Part shown: piece after piece, positions 9,387-61,513 of the stretch
How positions within the stretch are numbered: the first letter of the stretch is position 1
How the letters are laid out: each line of letters starts with the position of its first letter
Source of the DNA: Oscillatoriaceae cyanobacterium Prado104
Lineage (GTDB): Bacteria; Cyanobacteriota; Cyanobacteriia; Cyanobacteriales; Microcoleaceae
DNA length: 64,000 nt
Reading direction: 5' to 3'
NCBI GenBank assembly: GCA_025454405.1
Contig: JALOON010000001.1
Coordinates: 124,001-188,000 of the forward strand
Program-made: the position numbers and the translations under genes
Notes under the pieces: model-generated
What the model was told of the DNA's origin: nothing
Database searches by the model: none
What the model saw: only the letters and a program-made list of their open reading frames with translations

Positions 9387-9394
9387 TTCAATTG

Positions 9395-39452: not shown

Positions 39453-39480
39453 AAACTTCCTTGAACTTATCTGCGTTAAT

Positions 39481-39602
39481 CTTAGGTTTTAGGTTTTAGG
39501 TTTTAGGTTTTAGGTTTTAGGTTTTTTTAGCGCCGTTCCACCTACTACCTAACATTTACTTTTTCCTTCTTCCTTCTTCCTTCTTCCTTCTTCCTTCTTC
39601 TT
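39481..39602. repeat. Two heptamer STRR blocks
   Basis: About six units of TTTTAGG (39484-39530) and six of CTTCCTT (39556-39602). Heptanucleotide tandem repeats (STRRs) are a known feature of filamentous cyanobacterial genomes. The inverse GAAGGAA heptamer recurs at 58484-58524. Confidence 0.9.
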
Positions 39603-39621
39603 ACCAAACGATGCTGCTAAT

Positions 39622-41679
39622 TTAACCACCCGTACCGTTAATTGCCAACCAAGCCCGCAACACTTCCGCCACCGTCCAAGCTTGCGCCGTACAGCCCCGC
39701 GGCTCAAAAGGATCGTTGCCTTCAAAAATCTCGCCCAAACTGCCAACACCACCTGCAAGTATATGATGTGCCATTGGTGCCAGCAGTTCGTTGGCTTGTG
39801 CTGGATCTTTGTATACATCTAAGTAAGCCAAAACAAAGGAACCGATCGGCCAGCCCCAAACCGTCCCCTGATGGTAGGCGCTGTCTCGCTGCAATTGGTC
39901 GCCTCCGTATTTGCCCCGATACAGCGGATGGTTCGGGGAGAGGCTGCGCAGCCCGAAGGAAGTTAACAAATGCTGCGCGCAGGCATCTACTACAGCCTTG
40001 CGCCGATCGGGCGTGAGTAACGGTGTATACCTGTGAGTTTCTTTCCCCCGCATCCCCTTGAATGACGGGAATTTGAAGGACAAGTCGAGGGGCAGGGATA
40101 CTGCAAATATCTGATTGGGGCGCAGGGAAATGTCGTTGCCGCCGGGGCCGTCGAGAACGTCGAAACAAAAGCCTGCATTGCCGTTCCAGAAACGGGTGAA
40201 TCCGGCTGCCGTCCGATCGGCCAACTTTTGGTATTCATAGTGAGGTTTGCCCAATTTGTGCGCGAAATCTACCATCGCTTGTATAGCGTTGTACCAAAGA
40301 GCGCTGATTTCGATCGGCTTGCCAGTCCGGGGCGTCACCACCCAATTGCCGATTTTGGCGTCCATCCAGGTAAGTTGCAGGCCGTCGTCACCGGCGTAAA
40401 CTAAACCGTCGTCGGGATCGACGCGGATATTATACCGAGTGCCGCGCAAGTGCCAGTCCACTATCTCGCACAAAATCGGCCAGAGTTCGCCCAACAGTCG
40501 ATCGTCCCCGGTAGTATCAACATAGGCGCGAATTGCCTCAAAGTACCACAGCGTCGCGTCTGCGGTGTTGTATTCCGGCGCGCCGCCGGCATCGGGAAAG
40601 CGGTTCGGCAGCATTCCCCGATCGACATACCGCGCAAAAGTCCGCAGGATCGATCGGGCAATTTCCCACCGCCCGGTACAGATTGTGAGGCCCGGCAGGC
40701 TAATCATCGTATCGCGCCCCCAGTCGCTAAACCAGGGATATCCGGCGATGATGGTTTTGCCCTCCGGTTCCTCCGGCAGCGGGCGGCTGACGATAAATTG
40801 GTCTGCAGCGAGGACTAATTGCTCGATCCAATCGGGTGAATCGCCTGCGGCAGACCATTTTTGCAAAACTTCGCGATCGCCTGCGCGGCGTGCTTCCAAG
40901 GCTGTAGGGCCATCTAACTCGGGATTTTTGGCGGTGCTGGCTGTTAAAGTGAGGGACTGTCCGGGTTCGATCGTGAAGTGAAAAGTCGCGGCATGCAGGT
41001 GATCCTCGCAGCATTCGAGTCCGCGCCGCCTTTCTGCTGCCAGGTCAAATCCGTAGTGCCAGTTGTATAAAGGTGTCGAAACTCGGAATTTCGCCTCAGG
41101 TGCGGCATCTGCTAGCAGGTACAGCGGGGCTGCTGCTGCGAAAGCTGTCACGCAAACGCCCTGCGGCAGGGTTTCTACGGCAATCGGCCAGTCGCCGGCA
41201 CCGGTAATGTGGTGGTAGTCGCGGTAATTGACAAGGGCTTTGACGGCTAGGGCGATCGATTTTGAGGCGCGGTGCAAGCGATATTGTATATATGTTGTGT
41301 TAGCACTTTGTTGCATCCAAATCCGCTTTTCGAGGATGGCGTCGGCGAGGGCAAACCGCCAAACCGGCGTCGTGCCTTCGAGGTGAAAGCTTTCGATGTA
41401 TTTGTAGCCCTGGGGTTCGATCGTCCCGTCGGCCCAGCGGTTTGTATAAAGCGGGTAGGCGCGATCGTGATACACGGCCGTTTCGTCCAGCTTGGCAAGC
41501 ATCAAAGTCCTTGCCAGCGGGGGTTTGAGGGCTGCCACCAGCAGGCCGTGATAGCGCCTGGTAAGGAGACCCGCGATCGTCCCGCTAGCGTAACCGCCGA
41601 TGCCGTTAGTTACCAACCACTCGCGAGACTCCCCAGAGTCTAGATTGCCACAAATTTCCCGTCCAAAAGCAATAACCAT
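39622..41679 (-). CDS. Glycogen debranching enzyme (amylo-alpha-1,6-glucosidase, GH133 type)
   Basis: 685 residues. The N-terminal beta-sandwich starts EWLVTNGIGGYASGTIAGLLTRRYHGLLVAAL (about 20-50), the signature of bacterial/archaeal GDE_N. The C-terminal (alpha/alpha)6 domain has WFSDWGRDTMISLPGL (catalytic Asp region, about 320), YNTADATLWYFEAI, GLQLTWMDAK and YHQGTVWGWPIGSF. Full length. It removes alpha-1,6 branch residues of glycogen, feeding free glucose to glucokinase and linear chains to TreY. Same strand as glk, 169 bp upstream, probably co-regulated. Confidence 0.9.
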   Translation of the reverse strand: MVIAFGREICGNLDSGESREWLVTNGIGGYASGTIAGLLTRRYHGLLVAALKPPLARTLMLAKLDETAVYHDRAYPLYTNRWADGTIEPQGYKYIESFHLEGTTPVWRFALADAILEKRIWMQQSANTTYIQYRLHRASKSIALAVKALVNYRDYHHITGAGDWPIAVETLPQGVCVTAFAAAAPLYLLADAAPEAKFRVSTPLYNWHYGFDLAAERRRGLECCEDHLHAATFHFTIEPGQSLTLTASTAKNPELDGPTALEARRAGDREVLQKWSAAGDSPDWIEQLVLAADQFIVSRPLPEEPEGKTIIAGYPWFSDWGRDTMISLPGLTICTGRWEIARSILRTFARYVDRGMLPNRFPDAGGAPEYNTADATLWYFEAIRAYVDTTGDDRLLGELWPILCEIVDWHLRGTRYNIRVDPDDGLVYAGDDGLQLTWMDAKIGNWVVTPRTGKPIEISALWYNAIQAMVDFAHKLGKPHYEYQKLADRTAAGFTRFWNGNAGFCFDVLDGPGGNDISLRPNQIFAVSLPLDLSFKFPSFKGMRGKETHRYTPLLTPDRRKAVVDACAQHLLTSFGLRSLSPNHPLYRGKYGGDQLQRDSAYHQGTVWGWPIGSFVLAYLDVYKDPAQANELLAPMAHHILAGGVGSLGEIFEGNDPFEPRGCTAQAWTVAEVLRAWLAINGTGG

Positions 41680-42138
41680 AAAGACACACTCGCACTGATT
41701 TGTTGTCTACCTTTAGGTAGATTCTACACACGATCAAAATATGGCATTTGAACCCTTGCAGGCCGATAATATCGTCTCGGGTCAACTCCCGCAATAAAAA
41801 CAGTTTGTAGTGAGGACTTCAGTCTTCTAAATCTGCGGGCTGAAGTTCTCACTACGAACCTTAATTATGGCAATCTAGCGGACGCGATCCGATTTTGAGA
41901 TCGAACTCATACATATTCGTGCTTTAATTTAAACAGCCAACTGCTAATTTTACCTCAGTGATAATTCTCAGGGACAATTCTAGCCGTTGTTCTATCTGAA
42001 GTTAGTTGTCTTGAACTTCTTTTTTAATTCATATTACTTTTCAAATCGATTTTGGGCGATCGGCATTCAATATGCCTACTGCCACAATACCATTTTCAGC
42101 GAGATAGCAAACCAATTTTATCAGGAGAAAAACTCAAA
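41680..42138. repeat. Divergent promoter spacer with R1 repeat
   Basis: 459 bp between the debranching gene and treZ. R1 at 41803-41860 (GTAGTGAGGACTTCAGTC ... CTGAAGTTCTCACTAC). AGGAG at 42123-42127 serves the treZ start. No clear operator is visible. Promoters for both carbohydrate genes must lie here. Confidence 0.65.
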
Positions 42139-43965
42139 GTGAAGCTCGGAGCAAATTATTTGGGCAACAACCGATGCGATTTTACCGTGTGGGCTCCCAC
42201 CCTCGATCGAGTAGAACTGCAAATTGTTGCTCCCCAAAAACGCCTCCTCCCCATGCAAAAATCTGGGGCTGGGTATTGGACAACTACAGTTACAGACATC
42301 CCACCAGGCACTCTTTACAACTACAAACTCGATGGTAAAATCGATCGCCCAGACCCCGCATCAAAGTATCAGCCCCAAGGCGTGCACGCTCCATCTCAAG
42401 TAATCGATGACAGCGCTTTTAAATGGACGGATGCAGATTGGCAAGGAGTGCCTTTACCGGAAATGATAATTTACGAACTGCACGTCGGTACTTTCACACA
42501 AGATGGAACATTTGAAGCAATTATTCCCCAGCTCGATCGACTCAAACAACTGGGAATCAATGCCATAGAAATTATGCCCGTCGCTCAATTTCCGGGCGAT
42601 CGCAATTGGGGCTACGACGGCGTATATCCCTACGCAGTGCAAAACTCCTACGGCGGCCCGCAAGGCTTCAAAAAACTCATTGATGCCTGCCACCAACAAG
42701 GTATTTCAGTAATATTAGATGTCGTTTACAACCACCTCGGACCCGAAGGCAACTATCTCCGCGACTTCGGCCCCTACTTTACCTCAAAATACGGCTCTAT
42801 TTGGGGAGATCCCCTCAACTTCGACGACGAATACAGCGATGAGGTGCGCAACTACTTTATCGAAAACGCCGTTTACTGGTTCCGGGACTATCACGTCGAT
42901 GCCCTGAGACTCGACGCAATTCAAGCAATATTTGAAGTAAGCGCGAGACCGTTTTTACAAGAACTAGCCGACACAACAGCCGAACTTTCCCAACAGCTAG
43001 GAAGGCAACTTTATTTAATCGCAGAAAGCGACTTAAACGATGTCCGAGTCTTGCGATCGAAAGAACTCGGCGGCTTCGGACTCGACGCCCAATGGTGCGA
43101 CGATTTCCACCACGCACTGCACGCGCTTCTCACCGGAGAAAATGACAGGTACTACCAAGACTTCGGCAAGTGCGAACACCTGGAAAAAGCCTTCAAAGAA
43201 AGCTTTGTTTATTCAGGACAATACGCCCCCCACCGCAAGCGCAAACACGGCAATTCTGCAGCATCCCAACCAGCCCATCAATTTCTCGTATTTTCCCAAA
43301 CCCACGACCAAATCGGCAACCGCATTCTCGGAGACCGGCTGTCAAAAATAGTTGATTTTGAAGCTTTGAAACTTGCTGCCGGAACTGTTTTGATTTCTCC
43401 CTATATTCCATTTCTATTTATGGGGGAAGAGTATGGGGAAGAAGCACCGTTTTTTTACTTCGTTTCCCACTCAGACGGGGACTTAATCGAAGCCATCCGC
43501 AAAGACAAACAGCAAGAATTTAAAATCTTTGAAGGGCGGGGAGAATTTCAAGATCCCCAAAGTCCTGAGACTTTCCAAAAATGCAAGTTAAATTGGGAAA
43601 AACAAACAGCAGGCAAACACAAAATCCTCTGGGAATGGCACCAGCAACTAATTCAACTGCGGCGGACTGTTCCTGCATTGAAAAAACTCGATAAAAACAG
43701 TTTGGAAGTATCTTGCATCGAAGCTGACAAAATCTTATTTCTCCGTCGTTGGACAGATGACAACCAGATATTTTGCATTCTAAACTTCAACAAGCAAGAG
43801 GTTGCTTGTACGGTGAAAGTTCCTCAAGGTAACTGGGAAAAGATTTTAGATTCGATCGACCAAAAATGGCTGGGTACGGGTTCGACTTTGCCCGAAAAGA
43901 TAACTTCCGAGCAAAAATTGACCGTCAAACCGCAGAGTTTCGCACTTTATCAATTACTACAGTAA
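42139..43965 (+). CDS. treZ: Maltooligosyltrehalose trehalohydrolase
   Basis: 608 residues from GTG 42139, chosen because the family starts at KLGANYLGN..CDFTVWAP and AGGAG lies upstream; the frame is open back to a TTG at 42052. N-terminal CBM48-like domain, then a GH13_10 barrel: PVAQFPGDRNWGYDGVYPYAVQ, VYNHLGPEGNYL, the nucleophile Asp in DALRLDAIQAI, the acid Glu in LIAESDLND and FSQTHDQIGNR. It cleaves trehalose from maltooligosyltrehalose made by TreY. It is followed on the same strand by treY, 177 bp on, with R1/R9/STRR repeats between. Confidence 0.93.
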   Translation: MKLGANYLGNNRCDFTVWAPTLDRVELQIVAPQKRLLPMQKSGAGYWTTTVTDIPPGTLYNYKLDGKIDRPDPASKYQPQGVHAPSQVIDDSAFKWTDADWQGVPLPEMIIYELHVGTFTQDGTFEAIIPQLDRLKQLGINAIEIMPVAQFPGDRNWGYDGVYPYAVQNSYGGPQGFKKLIDACHQQGISVILDVVYNHLGPEGNYLRDFGPYFTSKYGSIWGDPLNFDDEYSDEVRNYFIENAVYWFRDYHVDALRLDAIQAIFEVSARPFLQELADTTAELSQQLGRQLYLIAESDLNDVRVLRSKELGGFGLDAQWCDDFHHALHALLTGENDRYYQDFGKCEHLEKAFKESFVYSGQYAPHRKRKHGNSAASQPAHQFLVFSQTHDQIGNRILGDRLSKIVDFEALKLAAGTVLISPYIPFLFMGEEYGEEAPFFYFVSHSDGDLIEAIRKDKQQEFKIFEGRGEFQDPQSPETFQKCKLNWEKQTAGKHKILWEWHQQLIQLRRTVPALKKLDKNSLEVSCIEADKILFLRRWTDDNQIFCILNFNKQEVACTVKVPQGNWEKILDSIDQKWLGTGSTLPEKITSEQKLTVKPQSFALYQLLQ

Positions 43966-43967
43966 AC

Positions 43968-44130
43968 GTTTTGTAGTGAGGAATTCAGTCCTTCTTTTTG
44001 AGATTTGTAGGGGTGCGCAGCGCGCACCTTACCATACACAAACACTCGACTTGTAGGGTGCGCAGTGCGCACCTTACCGTCCCCAATTCCCAATTCCCAA
44101 TTCCCAATTCCCAATTCCCCATTCCCAAAT
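43968..44130. repeat. Half R1, two R9 hairpins and an STRR between treZ and treY
   Basis: A half R1 (GTAGTGAGGAATTCAGTCC) at about 43972, two copies of TGTAGGG(G)TGCGCAGNGCGCACCTTACC (R9) at about 44007-44033 and 44053-44079, and a run of CCAATTC heptamers (44083-44130) reaching 13 bases before the treY start. The hairpins may attenuate read-through from treZ. Confidence 0.75.
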
Positions 44131-44142
44131 AACATTAAAATC

Positions 44143-46938
44143 ATGAGAATTCCCACCACGACATATCGGATTCAATTTCATGCAGGCTTTAACTTTGAAT
44201 CTGCCAAACAAATCCTCAACTATTTGGAAGAATTAGGAATTACCGATCTTTATGCTTCACCTATATTTAAAGCCAGAAAAGGCAGCACTCACGGTTACGA
44301 TGTAGTTGACTCGAATCAGCTAAATCCCGAATTGGGAACCTCAGAAGACTTTGAAACACTCAGTGAGGAAATTCAAAAACGCCAAATGGGATGGCTGCAA
44401 GATATCGTCCCGAATCACATGGCTTACGATACTCAAAACCTGCTGATTTTAGACGTACTCGAACACGGACCAGATTCTGACTATTTCGACTACTTTGATA
44501 TTGAATGGAACCACAGTTACGAAAATATTAGGGGGCGATTGCTAGCGCCACTTTTGGGCAACTTTTACGGCGAATGTTTGGAAAATGGCGAAATTCAACT
44601 CAAGTACGGCGAATCGGGGTTGAGTGTCAATTACTACAGCTTAGAATTGCCAGTTAGAATCGAATCTTACATCAAGTTTATCGGTCAAAATTTGGGACGT
44701 TTAAGCGGGGAATTGGGAAGACGCCACCCGGATTTTATCAAGTTGCTGGGGATTCTTTACATGATTAAAAATGTCCCTTCAGAAACTAAAGGTAAGGAAA
44801 GGTACGACCAAATAGCTTTTGTAAAAGGCTTGCTTTGGGAACTCTACACTCAAAATCCCATCGTCCAGAAATTTTTTGAGGATAATATCAAGTTTTTCAA
44901 CGGAGAAAAGGGGAATCCTGAAAGTTTTAACCCGCTGGATAATTTGCTTTCCGATCAGTTTTACCGCCTTGCTTTCTGGAAGGTGGGCGCAGAAGAAATT
45001 AACTACCGGAGATTTTTTACTGTCAACGAACTGATTTCTGTTAAAGTGGAAGAACTTAAAGTTTTCCAAAAAAACCATGCTTTGATTTTTGACTCGATCG
45101 AACAAGGTAAATTCACCGGATTGAGAATCGACCACATTGACGGACTTTACGATCCTACGGAATATCTGGAAAGGCTGAGAAAGAAAATCGGCGACATTTA
45201 CATCGCTGTCGAAAAAATCCTCGAACACAAAGAAGATTTGCCTGCTTATTGGCCGATTCAAGGAACTAGCGGCTACGATTTTTTAAACTACGCAAACGGC
45301 GTTTTTTGTCGGTGCGATCGCGAACAGCAATTTAGCGATATTTATTCCAGATTTACTCGCTTAAACGTTCCCTACGAACAGCTTTTTATCGATAAAAAAA
45401 CCTTGATTATAGAAAAGAATTTAGCGGGGGATGTAGACAATCTGGCGCAACTTTTAAAAAATATCTCCGGTCATTCCCGACAAGGAAATGACTTTACAAG
45501 GCGCGGCTTAGAACAAGCGCTTTTCGCAGTTTTGGCAGTTTTTCCAGTTTACCGAACCTACATCAATCAAGACGGTTTGAGAGAGTCCGATCGCACTTAT
45601 GTCAAAGAAGCAATCGACCAAGCAAAAGAACAAGTACCGCTGCTGCTGAAAGAACTAGATTTTATCGAAAAAATCCTGTTATTGGAAGAAGAAGAAACCG
45701 TAACATCCGAACAAAAAGCCTACCGCCGCCACTTCGTCATGAAGCTGCAGCAGCTAACTGGTCCGCTGATGGCAAAAGGCATTGAAGATACGCTTTTATA
45801 CGTCTACTATCGGCTGTTATCGCTTAACGAAGTCGGCGGAAATCCCAGTCAATTCGGTGTTTCTTTAGCAGATTTTCACGAATTCAACCAACAGCAGCAA
45901 CAAGTTTGGCCGCACAAAATGAATGCTACAGCTACCCACGACACCAAACGCGGCGAAGATGTCCGAGCTCGAATTAACATACTTTCAGAAATGCCTGAAG
46001 AATGGGAACAGCAAGTCAGATCCTGGAGGGAGTTGAACTCTGCAAAAAAAGTCAACTTAGTCAATCGCATCGTTCCCGATACTAACGACGAATACTTTTT
46101 TTATCAAACCTTAGTAGGTACTTTTCCGTTTGAGGGAATTGAAAATACCGATTATATCGTTCGCATCAAAAATTATGTCACCAAAGCCGTCCGCGAAGCT
46201 AAAGTTCACACTGCTTGGCTGAGGCCGGATAACAAATACGAAGAAGGTTTTATTACCTTTGTCGATCGCGTTTTGGAACCTTCAGAATCAAATCAATTTC
46301 TCAAAAAAATTCAGCCCTTCTGCAAAAAGGTAGCCCTCTACGGCATTGGCAATTCTTTATCCCAAACTCTGCTCAAAATCGCATCTCCCGGCGTCCCAGA
46401 CATTTATCAAGGAACGGAGTTTTGGGATTTAAGCCATGTCGATCCTGACAACCGCCGCCCGGTAGATTTCGATCGCCGGATCGAGGTTTTGCGGGAGATT
46501 AAAGAGAAATCTGAAACAGATATTTTGCAACTGATTGAGGAGTTGATTTCAACGCGGGAAGATGCTAGAATTAAGCTATTCCTGACAGCAAGACTTCTCG
46601 CAGCGAGAAAACAGTACCAAAATGTTTTTCAAAGAGGCAACTACCAACCGCTAACAGTAACTGGCACGTTTAAAGATAGTATTGTAGCTTTTGCCAGAAG
46701 CTGGGGAGACATAACAATTATAGCGATCGCCCCGCGATTTGTCACGAGTTTTGTTGCGCCAGAAGCAATGGCGATCGGCAACGAAATTTGGAAAGATACT
46801 AAGTTAGAATTGCCACCGGAAATGCCTGTTGTTTGGCAAGATGCGGTGACAAATCAAACGCTAGAAAGTAACGGCACGCTAGCAATTGGTGAAATTCTAA
46901 AATACTTTCCTGCTGCGATGGCGATCGGGAATAGTTGA
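44143..46938 (+). CDS. treY: Maltooligosyltrehalose synthase
   Basis: 931 residues from ATG 44143 (MRIPTTTYRIQFHAGFNF, the family start); an upstream ATG at 44065 would translate the STRR and is rejected. GH13_26 signatures: DLYASPIFKARKGSTHGYDVVD, DIVPNHMAY, nucleophile region TGLRIDHIDGLYDP, acid/base in AVEKILEHKEDLP, and NATATHDTKRGEDVRARI late. It turns the reducing end of a maltodextrin into a trehalose unit; TreZ then releases trehalose, a desiccation and osmotic protectant. The stop codon TGA lies in the first unit of a GTTGACA/GTTGATA heptamer array. Confidence 0.93.
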   Translation: MRIPTTTYRIQFHAGFNFESAKQILNYLEELGITDLYASPIFKARKGSTHGYDVVDSNQLNPELGTSEDFETLSEEIQKRQMGWLQDIVPNHMAYDTQNLLILDVLEHGPDSDYFDYFDIEWNHSYENIRGRLLAPLLGNFYGECLENGEIQLKYGESGLSVNYYSLELPVRIESYIKFIGQNLGRLSGELGRRHPDFIKLLGILYMIKNVPSETKGKERYDQIAFVKGLLWELYTQNPIVQKFFEDNIKFFNGEKGNPESFNPLDNLLSDQFYRLAFWKVGAEEINYRRFFTVNELISVKVEELKVFQKNHALIFDSIEQGKFTGLRIDHIDGLYDPTEYLERLRKKIGDIYIAVEKILEHKEDLPAYWPIQGTSGYDFLNYANGVFCRCDREQQFSDIYSRFTRLNVPYEQLFIDKKTLIIEKNLAGDVDNLAQLLKNISGHSRQGNDFTRRGLEQALFAVLAVFPVYRTYINQDGLRESDRTYVKEAIDQAKEQVPLLLKELDFIEKILLLEEEETVTSEQKAYRRHFVMKLQQLTGPLMAKGIEDTLLYVYYRLLSLNEVGGNPSQFGVSLADFHEFNQQQQQVWPHKMNATATHDTKRGEDVRARINILSEMPEEWEQQVRSWRELNSAKKVNLVNRIVPDTNDEYFFYQTLVGTFPFEGIENTDYIVRIKNYVTKAVREAKVHTAWLRPDNKYEEGFITFVDRVLEPSESNQFLKKIQPFCKKVALYGIGNSLSQTLLKIASPGVPDIYQGTEFWDLSHVDPDNRRPVDFDRRIEVLREIKEKSETDILQLIEELISTREDARIKLFLTARLLAARKQYQNVFQRGNYQPLTVTGTFKDSIVAFARSWGDITIIAIAPRFVTSFVAPEAMAIGNEIWKDTKLELPPEMPVVWQDAVTNQTLESNGTLAIGEILKYFPAAMAIGNS

Positions 46939-52040: not shown

Positions 52041-52243
52041 TTAGTTTGTAGTGGAGACTTTAGTCTTCCCAAGAAGCGGACGGACTTAAGTCCGCACTAC
52101 GAACTTAAAGTTAGTTTGTAGTGGAGACTTTAGTCTTCCCAAGAAGCGGACGGACTTAAGTCCGCACTACGAACTTAAAATTAGTTTGTAGTAGGGACTT
52201 TAGTCCTCCCCAAAAGCAGACTTAAGTCTGCACTACGAACGAT
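52041..52243. repeat. Three tandem R1 repeats, 70-bp period
   Basis: TTAGTTTGTAGTGGAGACTT starts at 52041, 52111 and (variant GTAGGGACTT) 52181, exactly 70 bp apart. Each unit is an R1 hairpin (GTAGTGGAGACTTTAGTC ... GACTTAAGTCCGCACTAC). The first two are identical over about 65 bp, so a recent duplication. The last unit overlaps the stop codon of the creatininase gene. Confidence 0.9.
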
Positions 52244-53048
52244 TTATATTTATCCTCGGTTGTCGGAATTTACCAACATCTTCAATAACTTTTACCCAAG
52301 CATCAGAGAGAGATTCGAGGATAATTTCGCCCTTTTCCTTAGTTGCCGCCGTTGCATCACCCAACACGCCGCTTGCAGTCAACTCTCCCGTCAGCCAAGC
52401 AAAAGGCAAATTACCTTCCATACTCAACAAACTATCGCTTGGCAAACCCTGCGGGTACTCGCAAACTGCCAGATCCATTTTCACCTGTTCCGGCAAAATT
52501 GACAGTAACAAACTCGTTTCTGCATCTCCCGCATGAATCCCGAATTCTAACTCTTTCGCAGTCAATAACTCGGCAGCAACGTTCGGCACACGCCAGACAA
52601 ACAGCGGAAAAACAGAAAAATCTTGATATTTTTGATGGATATCCCGCGCCGCAATTTCCATCACCTGAGGCTGCCCTCCGTGAGCGTTCGCTAGCACTAA
52701 CTTGCGAAATCCAGCCCGATAAATGCTGTCCGCCATTTCGCAAATTACCGCTAATAAAGTTTGAGCGCCGAGCACAATTGTACCGGGAAAATGGCAGTGT
52801 TCGTTCGATTTGCCGTAGTAAAGAGTGGGCAAAGCATAAGCGGGAATATTGGCATCTAATTTTGCTAAAGCTTTGCCCGTGACAGCCGCGCTAATTGCCG
52901 CATCGACGATTAAAGGCAAGTGCGGGCCGTGTTGTTCGATCGCGCCTAGAGGTTGAATGATAACAGTATTTTCCTTATCGGGCATCGACTCAATTTCTGT
53001 CCAGGTAAGATAAGGAAAAAAGCGTTCTGGTGGAGTAAAATTGTGCAT
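52233..53048 (-). CDS. Creatininase-family amidohydrolase
   Basis: 271 residues from ATG 53048 (MHNFTPPERFF); an in-frame start at 53063 adds five. The family's metal ligands are present: Glu/His in IQPLGAIEQHGPHLPLIVDA, His in LVLANAHGGQPQVM and HAGDAETSLLLSI (His/Asp/Glu). Members include creatinine amidohydrolase and the F420/riboflavin-related MftE/FAPy hydrolases; substrate is unknown here. The final residues NRS and the stop codon are encoded by an R1 repeat, so the natural C-terminus has been replaced. Confidence 0.88.
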   Translation of the reverse strand: MHNFTPPERFFPYLTWTEIESMPDKENTVIIQPLGAIEQHGPHLPLIVDAAISAAVTGKALAKLDANIPAYALPTLYYGKSNEHCHFPGTIVLGAQTLLAVICEMADSIYRAGFRKLVLANAHGGQPQVMEIAARDIHQKYQDFSVFPLFVWRVPNVAAELLTAKELEFGIHAGDAETSLLLSILPEQVKMDLAVCEYPQGLPSDSLLSMEGNLPFAWLTGELTASGVLGDATAATKEKGEIILESLSDAWVKVIEDVGKFRQPRININRS

Positions 53049-53160
53049 ATTGCAACGATCCAAGCTCGGGTAAGTCTAACCTGAATTAAAAGATTTTCTG
53101 AATATTATTTTATCTTTGTGTGAGGGCGAATTGATTCCTTAATGCCATCCATAAAACAGA

Positions 53161-53261: not shown

Positions 53262-53585
53262 TTAACGGTAGTCGCTGCGAACAGCAGGGTCGCGATCGCC
53301 CGTGGTAGTAGTAGTATAGCGGACTGGTTCTTCGCGCTTGCGAGGAATCAAACCGAGCAAACCAGACAATCCTAACAAGCCCAACCATCCCCAATCAAAA
53401 TCGCGATCTGTTTCAGTACCGTACACATCGGAGCGAGGAGTTGTGGTAGTGGTAGTTGTGTCTCTACTGTTAGTCCCTGGAGCGGTATCTGTCTGAGCGG
53501 AAGCGGGCAAGTTAGCGGGGAGAATTGCTAAACCAGCAGCGATAACGCCTGCACCGATTGCTTTAGATAAATTTGAGGGCTTCAT
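53262..53585 (-). CDS. WGxxGxxG-motif exported protein
   Basis: 107 residues. A signal peptide (LSKAIGAGVIAAGLAILPANLPASAQ) ends at ASA-Q. A Thr/Ser/Asp-rich spacer (residues 31-62) with six consecutive Thr follows. Then comes FDWGWLGLLGLSGLLGLIPRKREEP (about 63-87), the WGxxGxxG motif of small exported or membrane-anchored cyanobacterial proteins, and a charged tail. The hydrophobic motif followed by RKRE suggests membrane anchoring. Function unknown. Confidence 0.8.
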   Translation of the reverse strand: MKPSNLSKAIGAGVIAAGLAILPANLPASAQTDTAPGTNSRDTTTTTTTPRSDVYGTETDRDFDWGWLGLLGLSGLLGLIPRKREEPVRYTTTTTGDRDPAVRSDYR

Positions 53586-53997: not shown

Positions 53998-55329
53998 TTA
54001 CTTCTTGCTTTTGGGCGCTTCTTTCCTCAATTTTTCGAGAATCGATCGACCGATATAATTGCTAAAAATTACTTCTCCCGTTTGATTGTAGTGGCAGCAG
54101 CTATCTACGTAAACAACATCTTTAGTCTTGTCAAAAACATTCACGGCATTCAATACATCCACATTATTTTTTTTCAAATTAGGAAACTTTTTCAACAAAG
54201 CCGGATATCCTAGTTTCACAGATTTAGCATAAGGAGTATCTTTATTAAAAGCAATCTGCTTTTCTGCTTCGCTAAAAACTCTTTTAGTTTGATAGTATTG
54301 ATTCGGCTGGAGGACGTGAAAATAAGGCACTCTGCTGGCAGACAATACTTTATTCATAAAAATCGAACTTTTCGCCCAATTCCACGCCATTTGCTCGAAG
54401 GCAACTTCATCCTTTAAAACAGCTTTGTTAGTATTGATGAAAACCGCACTGCCTCCATCATCTTCATTCGTTTTACCGCGTTCTTTTTCAAACCGAATCA
54501 CATCTTTGCGGTAGTTATTTACCAAGTTTTGAATGTAAACTGACGTTAAAGCATCGCAGGCTGCTAGCTGGCAGTTTGGCAAACTTTCCAAAGCTTGATT
54601 GATTCGATCTTTATTCTCTTGAATCGCGATCGTAGCTTTCATCGCATTTACGGACAGGCTGTTATTCGCTAAGTTAGTCAGGGGCAGGATGTGCTGCACG
54701 CTGGGCATCGCCAAATCTATTTTATTTTGATTGTTTAAATTAGCCAGCGCTACTTCGTTAAAGCCGTCAATATTGACGACCATATCGAGTTCTTGACCTA
54801 AAGCCAGAAAATAGTTTAAAATTAATAACTGCTGCGGTTGTTTGTAACCGCCCGTCGCAAATGATAAAATCACAAATTCCTTATCTTGCAAACCTGGTAA
54901 CTGTTTGAGGTATTTAGCCAGAATTTGATTTTGCACTTCAAATATTGCATAACCCGAAGCAACTGAACCGCCAAATACGCCAATAATAAATTGATTTGGT
55001 TTGGTTTTTTTGAAAGGGTAATCGTAGGGAGAAATAAACCCGTAATTGTTAACTTTAAATCCCGGACGAAAATCCGAACTTGGTTTTTGAATAAATCCAA
55101 AATAAGGATGAAATCTTTCTACGATCGACTGATTCAACCGCACTCCTTCTAAATTAATTCCCAGGGCTGAATTGTCTTGCGGCTTTTGTCTGGTGTAGAA
55201 AAATTGCTTGTGTTTGACATAGTACCATCCCAAAGAACCGAGTTCTAGGAAAACTAACAACATCACTAAATTAATCGCAGCGATTTTTAAAATTTCGGGA
55301 ATGTTTTTGACAAACTTCAACTCTTTCAT
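53998..55329 (-). CDS. Membrane-anchored SGNH-like protein (copy 2)
   Basis: 443 residues. N-terminal membrane helix (about 14-36), then a region with an SGNH-like layout: block I is IIGVFGGSVASGYA with Gly-Gly-Ser in place of Gly-Asp-Ser, block II FATGGYKQPQQL, a NIDGFNEVAL block III and DSCCHYNQTGEVIFSNYI near the end, where His would complete the triad. It is a clear paralog of the next gene upstream (both share HKQFFYTR/NQKQFFYTR, ERFHPYFG, FFLALGQE). Predicted extracytoplasmic. Related folds act on acyl or O-acetyl esters of glycans; here the substrate is unknown. Last gene of the six-gene cluster, six bases after the previous stop. Confidence 0.75.
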   Translation of the reverse strand: MKELKFVKNIPEILKIAAINLVMLLVFLELGSLGWYYVKHKQFFYTRQKPQDNSALGINLEGVRLNQSIVERFHPYFGFIQKPSSDFRPGFKVNNYGFISPYDYPFKKTKPNQFIIGVFGGSVASGYAIFEVQNQILAKYLKQLPGLQDKEFVILSFATGGYKQPQQLLILNYFLALGQELDMVVNIDGFNEVALANLNNQNKIDLAMPSVQHILPLTNLANNSLSVNAMKATIAIQENKDRINQALESLPNCQLAACDALTSVYIQNLVNNYRKDVIRFEKERGKTNEDDGGSAVFINTNKAVLKDEVAFEQMAWNWAKSSIFMNKVLSASRVPYFHVLQPNQYYQTKRVFSEAEKQIAFNKDTPYAKSVKLGYPALLKKFPNLKKNNVDVLNAVNVFDKTKDVVYVDSCCHYNQTGEVIFSNYIGRSILEKLRKEAPKSKK

Positions 55330-55335
55330 AAATAT

Positions 55336-56670
55336 CTATTTTGATTTTCTGACTGTTTGAACGATCGAACTTGAAACATAATTTGCCAAGATTTCATCGC
55401 CTACTGAATTATAGTGACAGCAGGCATCTTTGTAAACTGTTTCTTTGGTATTGTCCAAAATATTCACAGCGCTAAATATATTAACTCCGGCTTTTCGCAA
55501 GTCGCCTACTTTGGACAGCAATACCGGATAGCCTTGTTTTACTCCTGCGATGTAAGGGCTGTCTTTGCTAATTGCAATCTCCTTTTCCTTATCAGTAAAA
55601 ACTCGTTTTGTCGGATAATACTGATTGGGCTGGATGAAATGAAAATACGGGATTTTTCTACTCGATAAAATTTGATTCATAGATACCGAGGATTCATACC
55701 ACATTGCTGCCATTTTGTCAAAAGCGGCGGCATCTGCTAAAACAGAATCGGCTTTGGGAATGTAAAATATACCGCTATTTGCATCTGAATTGGATTCTTT
55801 GACTTGCTTGTCGTACTTGACAACGGCTTGTTGGTAACTGCTAACTAATTGTCTCACTTGTAGCGATGTTACTGCGTGGCACAACGCGATCGAACAATTT
55901 TGCAATTTGTCAACTGCTGCTTTCAACTGTTTTTTAGTTTCGCTAATTTGGACGATCGACCCCATCAATTCCGGCGATAAGTTGTTGTTAGCTAAACCCG
56001 TCAGCGGCTGTAGGTGTTGCACGCTGGGCATTCCGATATCGAGTTGGGCTTTGTTGTTTAAATTTGAAAGTGCAACTTCGTTAAAACCGTCAAGATTGAT
56101 GACTAGATCGAATTCTTGACCCAAAGCCAAAAAATAATTTAAAATCAATAATTGCTGCGGCTGTTTGTAGCCGCCGTTGCCGAAATTTAAAACTACAATT
56201 TCCTTATTCGCAAATTCGGGATAACTCTTTAATTTTTTCGACAATCTTTGAGTTACATATTCATCTACGGCAAAGTTGTTAGCTACAGATCCGCCGAATA
56301 CTCCAATAATAAATTGATTTTTATTGGTTTTGACAAACGGATATTCATACAGCGAGAAAAAGCCGTGCCTGTTAACTTTTAACTTTAACTTTTCATTGGT
56401 AAAAGCACCTTGTTTGAGTACGTAGCCGAAAAACGGGTGCAGCCTTTCCACGATCGACTCATCTAATCTAATTCCCGCCCGATCGATTTCTTCTACTATT
56501 TTTTCTTGAGTTTTACCCCGCGTGTAAAAAAACTGCTTTTGGTTGACAAAATAAAACGCTAATGAGATAGCTTCCAGACAAACAAATGCGATCGCCAAAT
56601 TAACAGCAATTAAAACCGAGAGATTTTTGGCTTTTTTGAATAGCGTTGAATCTTTCATAAAATTAGACAT
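55336..56670 (-). CDS. Membrane-anchored SGNH-like protein (copy 1)
   Basis: 444 residues. Same architecture as 53998-55329: membrane helix at about 19-40, IIGVFGGSVANNFAVDEY, LNFGNGGYKQPQQLLILNYF, INLDGFNEVALSNLN, and DACCHYNSVGDEILANYV at the end. The two copies look strongly similar across their length. Ser in GGSVA and the late His are the candidates for catalysis; the missing Asp of the usual GDSL block is normal in several SGNH subfamilies. It starts eight bases after the stop of the upstream SGNH hydrolase, so all are one transcription unit. Confidence 0.75.
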   Translation of the reverse strand: MSNFMKDSTLFKKAKNLSVLIAVNLAIAFVCLEAISLAFYFVNQKQFFYTRGKTQEKIVEEIDRAGIRLDESIVERLHPFFGYVLKQGAFTNEKLKLKVNRHGFFSLYEYPFVKTNKNQFIIGVFGGSVANNFAVDEYVTQRLSKKLKSYPEFANKEIVVLNFGNGGYKQPQQLLILNYFLALGQEFDLVINLDGFNEVALSNLNNKAQLDIGMPSVQHLQPLTGLANNNLSPELMGSIVQISETKKQLKAAVDKLQNCSIALCHAVTSLQVRQLVSSYQQAVVKYDKQVKESNSDANSGIFYIPKADSVLADAAAFDKMAAMWYESSVSMNQILSSRKIPYFHFIQPNQYYPTKRVFTDKEKEIAISKDSPYIAGVKQGYPVLLSKVGDLRKAGVNIFSAVNILDNTKETVYKDACCHYNSVGDEILANYVSSSIVQTVRKSK

Positions 56671-56677
56671 ACTGCGG

Positions 56678-57904
56678 TTAACGCTTGGGAAGTTGAGATT
56701 GCTTCAATTCTCGACACAAATTTTGGTTAATTAAGATGCTGGCCAAACGGTGTCCGATTTCGTTCCAGTGGCCGCCGCAGGGTACGGAATTCTCGAAGCC
56801 GTGGACGCAAACTTGATAGTTTTCAGTGTAACCTTTGAACTGTTCGGATAAAGTTAACACTCGAAAACCTTCGCGCGCGCCCAATTTTTCCAGCCTCCTG
56901 TCGGGATAATACAAATCCTGAATGTTATTTTCCTGCATCAACTTTTGCCGCTTCGCCGGATCGCGATCGACTTGAATCGGATCGCCGATAACTACTAGCA
57001 AGAAATCAGCATTTTTCTGCACGACTTCATTGCGAATTTTCACGATTAAACCTTCCGTTACTTTCCAAGCATCTTTCCAAACAGCATTCTCCGGCGGCTT
57101 GAGATTCTTGGTACTCAGATTCGTAAAATCCTCAGACAACTGCCGCTTTTTCATGTCTAAATCCGCTTTTTTCACAACTTGTAAAATTCGCGAATTATCG
57201 ACCAGCCAACCCGGCAGCCTGTCAACAAATGAAACAGCTTTTTGATTGCGATCGACTGGCTTTAAATCCCGAAACGAATTATCTTGAACTAACTTACCGC
57301 TTTCATTATAAACAAAAAACGGTCGGTAAAGATCGTATTCGAGTTTGGGAGAATTGTTGATGATATCGTTGCCCGTAAAAAAAGCCAGAACTACAATATC
57401 GGGATTGTAATCCCACACCTTTTTGCGCAGCATAACTAGCTGTTGGGCGGTGCTGTAACCCTGCACGCCAAAATTAATTACCTCAACATTTTTTCGCCCT
57501 TTTACCGCCGCGCAATTGCCCAATTTGCGCTCTAATTTTGACCAGAAAGTTTGTTCTAGAGGGACGTGAATTGCCTCGGTGAAAGAATCGCCCAAAACTG
57601 CCACTCTCAGGGTATTTGGCGACTTAACTTTGGAATGTTCGCGATCGTGCAAACCCTCGCTATTCACCCGCACAAAACTCGCACCTTCCCCTTTCCACTC
57701 CCCCGAAGCATTCGGTTTGAGTTTCCATCCCAAATCGCGATCGGAAGTGTGGAAATTAGTTGGTGCCGACTCTACAAAATCCCCGATTTTTTGATAGCCT
57801 TCAATCTGCGCTACCCGCAATCCAATTTCACCAATTATCACCCCCACAAACAAACCGCTGAGTGTCAAACCCAAATTGACACCCAAATCCTTCAACTTGC
57901 TCAT
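56678..57904 (-). CDS. SGNH/GDSL hydrolase, membrane-anchored
   Basis: 408 residues from ATG 57904; a TTG at 57937 in the same frame is less likely. The membrane helix (LGLTLSGLFVGVIIGEIGLRV) is followed by the classic blocks: RVAVLGDSFTEA (nucleophile Ser), NFGVQGYSTAQQL, FFTGNDI (block III GxND) and HWNEIGHRLAS (DxxH-type, here HWNEIGH). It should hydrolyse or transfer ester groups outside the plasma membrane. It begins five bases after the 54-residue DUF5989 gene's stop, with AAAGG directly before its ATG. Confidence 0.85.
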   Translation of the reverse strand: MSKLKDLGVNLGLTLSGLFVGVIIGEIGLRVAQIEGYQKIGDFVESAPTNFHTSDRDLGWKLKPNASGEWKGEGASFVRVNSEGLHDREHSKVKSPNTLRVAVLGDSFTEAIHVPLEQTFWSKLERKLGNCAAVKGRKNVEVINFGVQGYSTAQQLVMLRKKVWDYNPDIVVLAFFTGNDIINNSPKLEYDLYRPFFVYNESGKLVQDNSFRDLKPVDRNQKAVSFVDRLPGWLVDNSRILQVVKKADLDMKKRQLSEDFTNLSTKNLKPPENAVWKDAWKVTEGLIVKIRNEVVQKNADFLLVVIGDPIQVDRDPAKRQKLMQENNIQDLYYPDRRLEKLGAREGFRVLTLSEQFKGYTENYQVCVHGFENSVPCGGHWNEIGHRLASILINQNLCRELKQSQLPKR

Positions 57905-57908
57905 CCTT

Positions 57909-58073
57909 TCAAAACAGCGTGTAAATAAACGGAGCAATTACAGAACCCTGACTGATGACAATCAAAGCTCCCAAAAAGACTAAAGTAATAATTAATGGCA
58001 GCAGCCAATACTTTTGGCGTTCTTTCATAAACGCCCACAAATCTTTGAGAAAGTCTAAAGTTGCTTCAAACAC
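57909..58073 (-). CDS. DUF5989/SxtK-like small membrane protein (54 aa)
   Basis: A GTG start at 58073, one base after the stop of the SxtJ-like gene, gives MFEATLDFLKDLWAFMKERQ, a basic KY turn, then a hydrophobic span (WLLPLIITLVFLGALIVIS) and GSVIAPFIYTLF at the end. This matches the small DUF5989 family, to which saxitoxin-cluster SxtK belongs, and such genes typically follow carbamoyltransferase and SxtJ genes. It probably spans or lies on the membrane. It is easily missed because of its size and GTG start. Confidence 0.8.
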   Translation of the reverse strand: MFEATLDFLKDLWAFMKERQKYWLLPLIITLVFLGALIVISQGSVIAPFIYTLF

Positions 58074-58074
58074 T

Positions 58075-58476
58075 TTAAAAAGGTCGCTCCATACTAACTT
58101 TTGTTCTTGGGACGCGGTAAGTATCCATTTTCGGATTCAGTTTGCGCCGCATAGCATCTTCACCAAACAGGTTTTTGATAACTCCCATCGGCCAAACTAT
58201 CAGGTAAAAAACTATCCCCAAAATAATCGGCGTTTCGATTTTGTTGAGGAGAATTCCGAATTTCATCCAAGCGTGATAGATGGGATTCAAGGCTTTCGGT
58301 GCAACTAATGCTAGCACGACTAGCACCGCACAAATTGCCCAGGGCCACCAAGGTAGAGAATGCCGCCGCAGTAAAGGTACTACTAAACCGAACAGCACTG
58401 CAATCAAGCCGCCAATTAGCAGCCCGAAATCGCGCAGGCCTTTTTTATCGAGTTTTTTAATTTCGTCGTGAGTCAT
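58075..58476 (-). CDS. SxtJ-like membrane protein
   Basis: 133 residues from ATG 58476. MTHDEIKKLDKKGLRDFGLL, two or three membrane segments (LIGGLIAVLFGLVVPLL, PWAICAVLVVLALV, ILGIVFYLIVWPMGVI) and the family end KNLFGEDAMRRKLNPKMDTY. SxtJ-type proteins have unknown function but travel with O-carbamoyltransferases. The frame is open much further upstream, but that part is read from a heptamer repeat and is rejected as coding. The STRR ends eight bases before the ATG, so there is no ribosome binding site of the usual type. Confidence 0.85.
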   Translation of the reverse strand: MTHDEIKKLDKKGLRDFGLLIGGLIAVLFGLVVPLLRRHSLPWWPWAICAVLVVLALVAPKALNPIYHAWMKFGILLNKIETPIILGIVFYLIVWPMGVIKNLFGEDAMRRKLNPKMDTYRVPRTKVSMERPF

Positions 58477-58797
58477 GGTGAAAGAAGAAGGAAGAAGGAA
58501 GAAGGAAGAAGGAAGAAGGAAGAGATTCGATCGTGCAGAAAGTCCGTCGATTATTCCGAGGGTCCGACAGGGGTTGAAAACCCCTGTCTCATAGCTAAAG
58601 TCCTCTGAAAGAGGACTAAAATACATCGTAATTTCGATTGTAATTGACGATTGTAATTCATTGTAATTAACAGTCGGTTTCAACCGACTTTCGCTATGAG
58701 GCAGGGGTTTAAACCCCTGCCGGACTGATGGACTGCTGCCGGACTGATGGACTGGTGCCGGACTCCTGGATTGATGTCAGACTGCCGGACTTTGGAT
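58477..58797. repeat. STRR plus full-length R4 inverted element
   Basis: GAAGGAA heptamers (58484-58524) abut the SxtJ-like start. The R4 element (about 58560-58725) has inverted ends: CAGGGGTTGAAAACCCCTG, CTCATAGCTAAAGTC and AGTCCTCTGAAAGAGGACT on one side, and AGTCGGTTTCAACCGACTTT, CGCTATGAG and GCAGGGGTTTAAACCCCTGC on the other. Then CCGGACTGATGGACTG units (58718-58795) follow to the carbamoyltransferase stop. No gene is seen; the repeat sits inside a cluster that otherwise has almost no spacers. Confidence 0.85.
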
Positions 58798-60783
58798 TTA
58801 ATCTAATTCAAATTCGTTTTTCCAAGAATCGTCTTGTTTCCAGGGAATTTGTTCGGTTTTTGCCATCAAGAAATTCTCCACAACCAGATAATCCATTTCG
58901 GTGCGCATGAAGCAGCGGTAAGCATCCTCAGGAGTGCAAACAATCGGCTCGCCTCGCACGTTGAAAGAAGTATTTACTAACACCGAACAGCCCGATCGCT
59001 CTTCAAAATGAGTTATTAAATCGTAGTACCTCGGATTGGTTTCTTTATGAACTGTTTGGACGCGCGCCGAGTAATCGACGTGGGTGATCGCCGGAATTTC
59101 GGAACGCGGTACGTTGAGTTTTTCGATGCCGAATAACTGTTCTTGTTCCGCAGTCATCGGAATGCGGAGACTGTTTTTAACAGGAGCTACTAACAGCATA
59201 TAAGGACTGGAGCGATCGAGCTCGAAATAATCAGCAACTCGTTCGGCCAATACTGACGGTGCAAACGGTCGAAAAGATTCCCGATATTTAATTTTCAGGT
59301 TCATTACCGACTGCATTTTAGTATTGCGGGGGTCGCCAATAATCGATCGACCGCCCAACGCCCGCGGCCCGAATTCCATCCGCCCCTGAAACCAGCCCAC
59401 CACATTTCCCTGTTCCAAAATCTCTGCCAAACGCGGCATTAATTCCGCATCATCCAATCGATGATAGCTGGCTTTTATAGCATCCAAATATTCGATAATT
59501 TCCGCATCAGAAAACTTCGGTCCTAAATAAGAACCGCGCATTCGATCGTTGCAAGTTAAATGAGCAAAAGATTTCACCGCAGTCGCCACCCCACTGTTGG
59601 TAGTGAGGACTTCAGTCCGCTCTTCTACCATTTGGTTGGTAGTGAGGACTTCAGTCCGCTCTTCTACCATTTGGTTGGTAGTGAGAACTTCAGTCCGCTC
59701 TGAAACATTCCGACTTTGTTCGCAATACTGATACCAAATCGCCAAAGCCGCGCCCAAAGCACCGCCGGCATCTCCCGCCGCCGGCTGAATCCAAATATCT
59801 TTGAAAATACCTTCCTGCACGATTTTACCGTTAGCAACGCAGTTGAGCGCCACCCCGCCCGCGAGACAAAGATAATCAGCATTCAATTCTTTTTTAATCG
59901 TCCGGCAAAGCCGCAATACAACTTCTTCAGTAACAACTTGAATTGAAGCAGCAATATCCATTTCCCGCTGAGTCAATTTCCCTTCAGCTTGGCGCGGAGG
60001 CCCGCCAAACAGTTCGTCAAATTTCTGATTGGTCATGGTTAAGCCAACAGTGTAGTTGAAATAATCCATGTTCAACCGAAAAGTTCCGTCATCTTTGAGG
60101 TCGATTAAAGAGGTAAGAATCTTATCTACATACTTGGGTTCGCCGTAAGGCGCTAAACCCATCAATTTGTATTCGCCCGAGTTAACTTTGAAGCCGGTGT
60201 AATAGGTAAAAGCTGAATAAAGCAAACCCAAAGAGTGAGGAAAATCGATTTCCCACTGCGGAGTCAGTTCGTTGCCGTCTCCCAACCAAATTGAAGTTGT
60301 CGCCCACTCGCCCACACCGTCAAGACACAAAACGGCGGCTTTTTGAAACGGACTGGGGAAAAAAGCTGAGGCTGCGTGGGATTGGTGGTGTTCGGTAAAC
60401 AGCAGAGATGGCAATTTATTGGTTTTGCAGTTTGCCATTTCTGCGAGTTCTTTTTTGAGCATGGTTTTGAGGTAAAGCTTTTCTTTCAACCATACCGGCA
60501 TGGCGGCGAGAAAAGAACGAAAACCGTTTGGCGCGTAGGCTAAATAGGTTTCGAGAAGGCGCTCAAATTTAACTAAAGGTTTGTCGTAAAAAACAATTTT
60601 ATCGAGTTCCCGCAGCTCGATTTGCGCTTCTTTCAGGCAATACGCGATCGCATTCTTGGGAAATCTGGCATCGTGCTTTTTGCGGGAAAATCTCTCTTCC
60701 TGTGCTGCGGCAATAATTTCTCCGTCGCGAACTAATGCTGCGGCGCTGTCGTGATAGTACGCCGAGATTCCAAGTATGTTCAT
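58798..60783 (-). CDS. O-carbamoyltransferase (NodU/CmcH family, SxtI-like) with in-frame repeat insertion
   Basis: 661 residues from ATG 60783, with AGGAG five bases upstream. The N-terminal domain starts MNILGISAYYHDSAAALV and has AAQEERFSRKKHD and EHHQSHAASAFFPSPF (metal/His motif), then CLDGVGEWATTS. The C-terminal domain has LAGGVALNCVANGKI, GPRALGGRSIIGDPR, FRPFAPSVLAE and VNTSFNVRGEPIVCTPEDA, the carbamoyltransferase signature. It makes carbamoyl-adenylate and moves carbamoyl to a hydroxyl. Residues about 361-395 are an insertion of repeated RTEVLTTNQMVEE units from R1 repeats; neighbouring motifs are intact, so activity may be kept. First gene of the cluster. Confidence 0.92.
   Translation of the reverse strand: MNILGISAYYHDSAAALVRDGEIIAAAQEERFSRKKHDARFPKNAIAYCLKEAQIELRELDKIVFYDKPLVKFERLLETYLAYAPNGFRSFLAAMPVWLKEKLYLKTMLKKELAEMANCKTNKLPSLLFTEHHQSHAASAFFPSPFQKAAVLCLDGVGEWATTSIWLGDGNELTPQWEIDFPHSLGLLYSAFTYYTGFKVNSGEYKLMGLAPYGEPKYVDKILTSLIDLKDDGTFRLNMDYFNYTVGLTMTNQKFDELFGGPPRQAEGKLTQREMDIAASIQVVTEEVVLRLCRTIKKELNADYLCLAGGVALNCVANGKIVQEGIFKDIWIQPAAGDAGGALGAALAIWYQYCEQSRNVSERTEVLTTNQMVEERTEVLTTNQMVEERTEVLTTNSGVATAVKSFAHLTCNDRMRGSYLGPKFSDAEIIEYLDAIKASYHRLDDAELMPRLAEILEQGNVVGWFQGRMEFGPRALGGRSIIGDPRNTKMQSVMNLKIKYRESFRPFAPSVLAERVADYFELDRSSPYMLLVAPVKNSLRIPMTAEQEQLFGIEKLNVPRSEIPAITHVDYSARVQTVHKETNPRYYDLITHFEERSGCSVLVNTSFNVRGEPIVCTPEDAYRCFMRTEMDYLVVENFLMAKTEQIPWKQDDSWKNEFELD
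59600..59700. repeat. R1 half-units inside a coding sequence (three copies, 39-bp period)
   Basis: GTAGTGAGGACTTCAGTC begins at 59600 and 59639 and GTAGTGAGAACTTCAGTC at 59678, each followed by CGCTC. The 39-bp period keeps frame and gives 13-residue peptide units (RTEVLTTNQMVEE). The core is identical to the R1 copy at 41810-41827. Confidence 0.92.
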
Positions 60784-61027: not shown

Positions 61028-61513
61028 TCAGCGCCTGGAAATCCGCCGCCCCCAAGCCCTGAAGTACGTCGCCACGGGAAATTGATAAAATTCCACAACC
61101 AACCACAACACAATTCCCAAGTGAGACAAAAAGGCCAAGCCCGTCCAAGCTGCAGGCAACCAAGACAAGCGGCTTCCCGGTACGGGGGGAAAATAGTATG
61201 CTGCCAGCGCCAACAATGCGGGGGGCAGAAAAATTAAACCTATGGCGGCTGCAAGGTAGGGCCAGCCGAATTCTACCCCTTCGAGGTGAGCTCCGATCCA
61301 CCGCTTGCCGTTCCAGTGCCAAATTACCGGCGGAGATCGATCGACCATTTTCAAAATTTGTCTTTCTTCGCTGGCGGTAAAAATGTGCTGGCAAAAGTTG
61401 CAAGCTAGGGCGTCCATCAGCGGTAAGGTGGAAATTTGACCGGTGCGACATACCGGGCAAGGATAAGTATCTTGAGAGTTAAAGCGGCGGGTTGAGTTGG
61501 GAAGCTTTTGCAT
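61028..61513 (-). CDS. Zinc-ribbon membrane protein
   Basis: 161 residues. An N-terminal zinc ribbon (YPCPVCRTG ... LACNFCQHIF, CxxC-x16-CxxC, about 18-42) is followed by WHWNGKRWIGAHLEGVEFGWP and two membrane segments (LAAAIGLIFLPPALLALAAYYF, AWTGLAFLSHLGIVLWLVVEFY). A cyanobacterial type of unknown function, probably with the ribbon in the cytosol. Start ATG 61513 (MQKLPNSTRRF); an overlapping frame in another phase (60966-61460) is a shadow. Separate from the carbamoylation cluster by an R2 pair. Confidence 0.8.
   Translation of the reverse strand: MQKLPNSTRRFNSQDTYPCPVCRTGQISTLPLMDALACNFCQHIFTASEERQILKMVDRSPPVIWHWNGKRWIGAHLEGVEFGWPYLAAAIGLIFLPPALLALAAYYFPPVPGSRLSWLPAAWTGLAFLSHLGIVLWLVVEFYQFPVATYFRAWGRRISRR

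Follow-up and report, generated by a model that had tools for sequence, protein, structure and literature searches.

What does a set of saxitoxin-type carbamoylation genes do in a cyanobacterium when no toxin genes are seen beside it? The question is raised by a stretch of 64,000 nucleotides from Oscillatoriaceae cyanobacterium Prado104 (assembly GCA_025454405.1, contig JALOON010000001.1, positions 124,001 to 188,000), the whole of which is referred to here as the window. At 53998-60783 it carries six genes, all on the - strand, in the order O-carbamoyltransferase (CT), SxtJ, DUF5989, SGNH1, SGNH2 and SGNH3. Linkage, co-occurrence and one fusion show that CT, SxtJ and DUF5989 form one conserved unit (hereafter the triad), which is not specific to cyanobacteria and is spread across many bacterial phyla. 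The three SGNH proteins comprise two types, one of them (type 2) an unnamed esterase-like family, and co-occurrence supports the assignment of both types to the triad system, even where the genes are unlinked.

The module

The features of the module are as follows (aa, amino acids).

58798..60783, - strand: CT, in the SxtI position; 661 aa; PF02543 (E 1e-128) and PF16861 (E 1.5e-76)
58477..58797, - strand: CT-SxtJ gap with short tandem repeats; 321 bp
58075..58476, - strand: SxtJ family membrane protein; 133 aa, 402 bp; PF19588, 53.8 bits (cut-off 24.4)
57909..58073, - strand: DUF5989, in the SxtK position; 54 aa, 165 bp, GTG start; PF19451, 89 bits (cut-off 27)
56678..57904, - strand: SGNH1, in the SxtL position; 408 aa, 1227 bp, N-terminal anchor
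55336..56670, - strand: SGNH2, type-2 SGNH protein; 444 aa
53998..55329, - strand: SGNH3, SGNH2 paralog with the same motifs; 443 aa; 50% identity to SGNH2 by alignment

Open reading frames (ORFs) and domain matches bear out the six genes, the single strand and the order given in an earlier note on this DNA, and its spacing of 1-8 bp between most genes holds for the last five (SxtJ to SGNH3), which are separated by 1, 4, 7 and 6 bp. The longer CT-SxtJ gap contains a 7-bp repeat (GAAGGAA, x6.3) and a 19-bp unit (x2.5) at 58480-58797, and its length differs among related genomes. For SxtJ the best start is the ATG at 58476, giving 133 aa, as against 202 aa for the longest ORF; by hydropathy, SxtJ has 3-4 hydrophobic segments and DUF5989 has one. 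SGNH1 has an alternative TTG start at 57937, overlapping DUF5989, and scores 24.3 bits with PF00657 (cut-off 23.6) and 24.8 bits with PF13472, under the cut-off of 32.9. Close relatives of the encoded proteins bear the names Microcoleus, Oscillatoria, Tychonema and Kamptonema.

Conservation of the CT-SxtJ-DUF5989 triad

Of 194 genomes of the phylum, 27 have an above-cut-off match to DUF5989, 25 to SxtJ and 36 to Carbam_trans_C. These sets are nested: all 25 SxtJ genomes fall within the 27 with DUF5989 and all 27 within the 36 with Carbam_trans_C (Fisher 2e-29 and 1e-25, not corrected for ancestry). In the remaining two DUF5989 genomes (L099 and L100), SxtJ was detected by our own profiles. CT lies within ~2.5 kb of DUF5989 in 22/27 genomes, and is present elsewhere in the genome in the other five (G014, G076, G080, G093 and G106).

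A DUF5989 scan of named genomes gave at least 567 relatives, of which the best 80 were kept, a set nearest to the query rather than a random sample. These loci come from cyanobacteria, including Prochlorococcus, and from Pelagibacteraceae, Nitrospira, Balneolaceae, Omnitrophota, delta- and gammaproteobacteria, and others. Within 9 kb of DUF5989, the best 80 of the at least 567 loci contain CT in 78 and SxtJ in 79, in line with the statement in the earlier note that SxtJ/SxtK homologs usually accompany O-carbamoyltransferases. The missing partners are those of L135 and L174, the latter at a contig end. All three genes form a single same-strand run with gaps of at most 250 bp in 71 of the 80 loci, and their order varies, which speaks for function over simple inheritance of one operon. 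CT and SxtJ are fused into one reading frame in G022; the fused CT-SxtJ frame at L098 (5844-8087), of 747 aa, has DUF5989 close by on the opposite strand. In Sinorhizobium meliloti 1021, profiles find SxtJ, DUF5989 and CT as consecutive genes on pSymB, and an SGNH gene lies at a distance on the opposite strand.

The window CT contains both the Carbam_trans_N and Carbam_trans_C domains (PF02543 and PF16861), and its motifs HHxxHA, EYKxMGLAP, GPRALGxRS and NTSFN...EPIV align with the structures of NovN and GdmN, leading to its prediction as an O-carbamoyltransferase of the NodU/TobZ type. The triad-linked CTs form a clade of their own: in a FastTree tree of 117 rows, with the window CT counted twice and some long branches, a branch with support 99 sets apart 103 rows, from DUF5989 loci and the five genomes with relocated CT. 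Outside this group lie 13 CTs from stretches without detected SxtJ or DUF5989, and the second CT of L144. A gap in CT bit score between linked and unlinked genomes was dropped as proof in favour of the tree, since the profile had been made from linked CTs. The interdomain linker of the window CT contains an in-frame 39-bp repeat (59596-59701, x2.7, 98% match).

Association of SGNH genes with the triad

The triad followed by at least three SGNH genes was found in 13 other fetched loci (near-copies not removed), two of the SGNH genes being type 1 in L077 and L117. This recurrence, together with the co-occurrence counts, argues that the arrangement is more than chance, and supports the single functional system proposed in the earlier note, which had suggested a search for the same gene order in other cyanobacteria and would have given up the idea had the genes rarely been neighbours in relatives; they do lie adjacent there. 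Co-occurrence was counted in a set of 195 genomes from the window's order, 49 of which carry DUF5989, with strong matches defined as at least 200 bits for the SGNH1 type and more than 450 bits for type 2 (all others scoring at most 35 bits). SGNH1-type genes are present in 32 of the 195 genomes, 31 of which carry DUF5989 (the match in G441 is broken), and type-2 genes in 24, every one of which carries DUF5989.

This association does not depend on adjacency. In 17 of the 24 genomes, DUF5989 and the type-2 gene share a contig and lie within ~13 kb of each other; in seven genomes of family f4 they are on different contigs. Genomes of family f5 (e.g. G143) have an SGNH1-type gene, though far from DUF5989. 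The fetched stretches of G421 and G400 contain no SGNH gene other than one of type 2, which lies beside the triad. The largest set, L248 (G464:C64, 3714-16688), has seven SGNH genes on one strand (five SGNH1-type and two type-2) adjoining SxtJ-DUF5989, with CT outside the fetched stretch. Beyond the cyanobacteria, a type-2 gene with 27% identity adjoins CT in Desulfobulbus (L129), which was the one strong match of the type-2 profile in 148 genomes of the Desulfobulbus group.

Fold and active site of the SGNH proteins

SGNH2 and SGNH1 show weak kinship by BLAST (E 3e-4), and profile comparison links their groups (99.4%, E 5e-22), with the Ser, Gly, Asn and His blocks lining up. The motifs of SGNH2 are Ser128 (GGSVA), Gly167 (GGYKQPQQ), Asn197 (DGFNE) and Asp415-x-Cys417-Cys418-His419, and the Ser, Gly, Asn and His (blocks I, II, III and V) are invariant in 47 aligned type-2 sequences. 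The structure model of SGNH2 has an esterase-type SGNH fold, to which SGNH3 may be assigned through its identity to SGNH2, so that the fold suspected for both paralogs in the earlier note is retained, and the second observation that the note had named as refuting, a different fold, did not arise. The profile searches suggested there for the 443- and 444-residue proteins gave no convincing Pfam or NCBIfam family for the 47 type-2 members.

SGNH1, which had been called canonical, is not fully so: it has the GDS Ser107, Gly, Asn179 and His379, but C-G-G-H around the His; the catalytic Asp usual at -2/-3 from the His is absent in all three window SGNH proteins. SGNH2 and SGNH3 have D-x-C-C-H at this position, with an Asp at -4, and an Asp at -3 is also present in 7/47 type-2 relatives. 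An N-terminal helix anchor with the catalytic domain outside is predicted for SGNH1-3, supporting the extracytoplasmic location proposed earlier.

Neighbouring genes and clues to the acceptor

The genes sharing runs with the triad were scanned as 113 of 153 unassigned proteins from the 80 loci, leaving out mostly short ORFs and genes upstream of cyanobacterial CTs. The glycosyltransferase families PF00535 and PF00534 were found in 9/113 and 8/113 proteins, and epimerases in 5/113, compared with at most one each for PF00535 and PF00534, and three epimerases, in control proteins more than 5 kb away (113 of 239), the two sets being unmatched for strand or length. This frequency of glycosyltransferases was counted in favour of a membrane glycan acceptor. 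Clustering of the 806 neighbours of 110 loci revealed no fixed substrate gene, the largest non-core cluster occurring in 11 loci.

Individual loci offer further clues. In L100 (f28, a member of the phylum), a protein of 895 aa resembling the large chain of carbamoyl phosphate synthetase (4356-7043) directly precedes DUF5989-SxtJ-CT, possibly as a dedicated supply of carbamoyl phosphate. On a Methylosinus plasmid (L109), the stretch before SGNH-SxtJ-DUF5989-CT (7941-9700) encodes an AMP-binding enzyme and, in a 240-bp ORF, a protein of the 80-aa class, the size of a carrier protein. A link to a Sinorhizobium arabinose polysaccharide cluster was dropped, as the annotated neighbours in strain Ak57 do not resemble a polysaccharide cluster and no connection emerged among the papers listed in a search.

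In the window, a zinc-ribbon-like membrane protein of 161 aa (61028-61513, - strand) lies upstream of CT; it is 83% identical to a protein in the same place in L124, and its cluster is found in nine related loci; in G039, an NAD kinase lies farther out. Downstream of the module are a WGxxGxxG protein (53262-53585, - strand) and a creatininase/MftE-like amidohydrolase (52233-53063, - strand). Farther away, glucokinase, glycogen debranching enzyme and two alpha-amylase family genes stand in a row at 38412-46938 (alpha-glucan metabolism), and the window also encodes a lipase-RTX repeat protein (31926-36143, - strand), a TPR-CHAT protein (13066-15645, - strand) and an NB-ARC ATPase (36521-38122, + strand).

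Proposed function and alternatives

Enzymes of the NodU/TobZ family form carbamoyl-AMP from carbamoyl phosphate and ATP, followed by esterification of a hydroxyl group. The conserved domains and motifs of the window CT suggest that it would act likewise in the cytosol. SxtJ and DUF5989, each predicted to be a membrane protein, would most likely dock it at the inner membrane, on an acceptor held there, for example a lipid-linked glycan or a glycolipid. Once the carbamoylated product has crossed the membrane, SGNH1-3 would most likely act on its esters, trimming or editing acyl or carbamoyl esters. We give about an even chance to this explanation as a whole, a membrane-docked O-carbamoylation unit with a membrane-associated acceptor and outside SGNH proteins processing the product; the acceptor is probably a glycan or glycolipid.

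Several observations weigh against this explanation. The acceptor and product are proposals, and the surroundings of the window (Microcoleus) module showed no glycan genes, so that the envelope modification put forward in the earlier note is plausible in general and lacks such neighbours at the locus itself. The missing catalytic Asp before the His also counts here. Regarding the SGNH genes, neither type is present in 14/49 DUF5989 genomes, type-2 genes occur in only four families of the order, G480 has an SGNH1-type gene without DUF5989 (the sole exception), and the Fisher values for SGNH and DUF5989 (3e-22 for the SGNH1 type, 2e-17 for type 2) are uncorrected for shared ancestry. An SGNH gene is in the triad run in 28/80 of the multi-phylum loci; absence from many runs indicates that the SGNH proteins are not essential to carbamoylation.

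Two alternatives are possible, each distinctly less probable than the membrane-docked unit. In the first, the module tailors a soluble secondary metabolite whose synthesis is encoded elsewhere in the genome, with SxtJ and DUF5989 coupling carbamoylation to export, as might be expected from the service of sxtI-L in saxitoxin synthesis and the presence of sxtJ, K and L in the suomilide cluster (both according to the published cluster descriptions), and from the lack of glycan genes near the Microcoleus locus. However, the triad is present in Prochlorococcus and Pelagibacteraceae, which would be unlikely homes for large metabolite pathways, its runs are rich in glycosyltransferases, and the 20 large window ORFs scanned contain no toxin core domains (sxtA/sxtG type), as the earlier note had stated for this DNA, the rest of the genome not having been searched.

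In the second, which we consider about equally tentative, the SGNH proteins are decarbamoylases that undo the CT step, resulting in reversible or edited carbamoylation. This role has been proposed for SxtL (PMC2679770, PMC3037375), would suit an esterase-type fold, and gains from a cluster with truncated sxtI that also lacks sxtL, as described in PMC3037375. In the cited parts of these sources the SxtL role remains a proposal, however, and the five SGNH1-type and two type-2 genes beside one SxtJ-DUF5989 pair in L248 fit several substrates better than a single step of removal.

A more speculative and rather unlikely reading regards the triad as a trans-membrane carbamoyl donor, in which SxtJ and DUF5989 pass the carbamoyl group, formed in the cytosol, to outward-facing SGNH transferases acting on different surface molecules. 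Such a relay would fit the many SGNH copies with one donor unit (seven in L248) and the altered acid position, and, if true, would be the carbamoyl equivalent of the O-acetylation machines AlgI/AlgX and PatA/PatB. It is improbable that only CT-SxtJ-DUF5989 is the system and the SGNH genes are chance neighbours: the 28/80 count above favours this, but the near-exclusive co-occurrence of SGNH and DUF5989, even unlinked, the type-2 gene as sole SGNH gene beside the triad in G421 and G400, and the type-2 protein adjoining CT in Desulfobulbus argue against it. A remnant of a decayed saxitoxin cluster, suggested by the identity of the gene order with sxtI-L, is very hard to credit, as the module is intact in the window and conserved among Microcoleaceae and in much more distant organisms, and the window CT groups with CTs of related organisms.

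SxtJ and the SxtK-like DUF5989 are parts of a carbamoylation unit found across many phyla with its own CT clade. The spread of the triad beyond saxitoxin clusters means that their role can be studied in harmless laboratory bacteria, such as S. meliloti 1021, and the presence of type-2 SGNH genes, which follows the triad, points to a carbamoylated molecule still to be found.

Comparison with saxitoxin genes and other known systems

The saxitoxin gene table of PMC2679770 lists, in order, sxtI (carbamoylation), sxtJ and sxtK (unknown) and sxtL (GDSL-type, proposed decarbamoylation), and the order sxtI-sxtJ-sxtK-sxtL in the published clusters (PMC2679770, PMC2684587, PMC2885083, PMC3037375, as far as consulted) is the same as that of the first four window genes. 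By the table, sxtJ, sxtK and sxtL are 405, 165 and 1278-1281 bp long, as against 402, 165 and 1227 bp in the window. The first SGNH gene occupies the sxtL position, which the earlier note overlooked; the correspondences of DUF5989 to SxtK and of SGNH1 to SxtL are similarities of position, length and annotation. The window module differs from the saxitoxin cluster in its two added type-2 SGNH genes. Homologs of the sxtI/J/K/L type in saxitoxin-negative Oscillatoriales (Lyngbya, Trichodesmium) are included in a 2009 publication (PMC2684587), and passages of the saxitoxin literature, including PMC2679770, call SxtJ and SxtK unknown or not functionally characterised.

In the suomilide/banyaside cluster, genes resembling sxtJ, K and L are likewise grouped, but they are part of a non-ribosomal peptide cluster, unlike the window module; the suomilide product bears carbamic and fatty-acid esters on a sugar, according to the part of the 2023 report concerned with it (PMC10157211). 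This carbamoylated, acylated sugar and its sxtJ/K/L-like genes offer a precedent for an ester-bearing carbamoylated product. NodU, TobZ, NovN and GdmN share the two-domain architecture and conserved motifs of the window CT, which differs in its separate clade, its longer C-terminal domain match and its tie to SxtJ/DUF5989.

Among SGNH proteins, CgnD of the crocagin pathway (8a2n) is described in the cited part of its report as a slow peptidase with Ser79-His328-Asp325 (PMC10070186). It is unmatched by the type-2 profile A3, which had no match in the PDB up to E 10, and is matched by the mixed SGNH profile A4 (E 2e-8). The O-acetylation SGNH proteins AlgX/AlgJ and PatB act extracytoplasmically. 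Profile A4 matches the C-terminal third of AlgJ (E 1e-7) and AlgX (E 5e-7), and these proteins and PatB share the SGNH fold, whereas their D-x-H motif is absent in the window SGNH proteins. A scan limited to 30 window ORFs found no MBOAT partner.

In the open-access literature searched, neither the reach of the triad nor the type-2 SGNH family was found described, nor was the name 'DUF5989' found. The first four genes represent the known sxtI-L arrangement.

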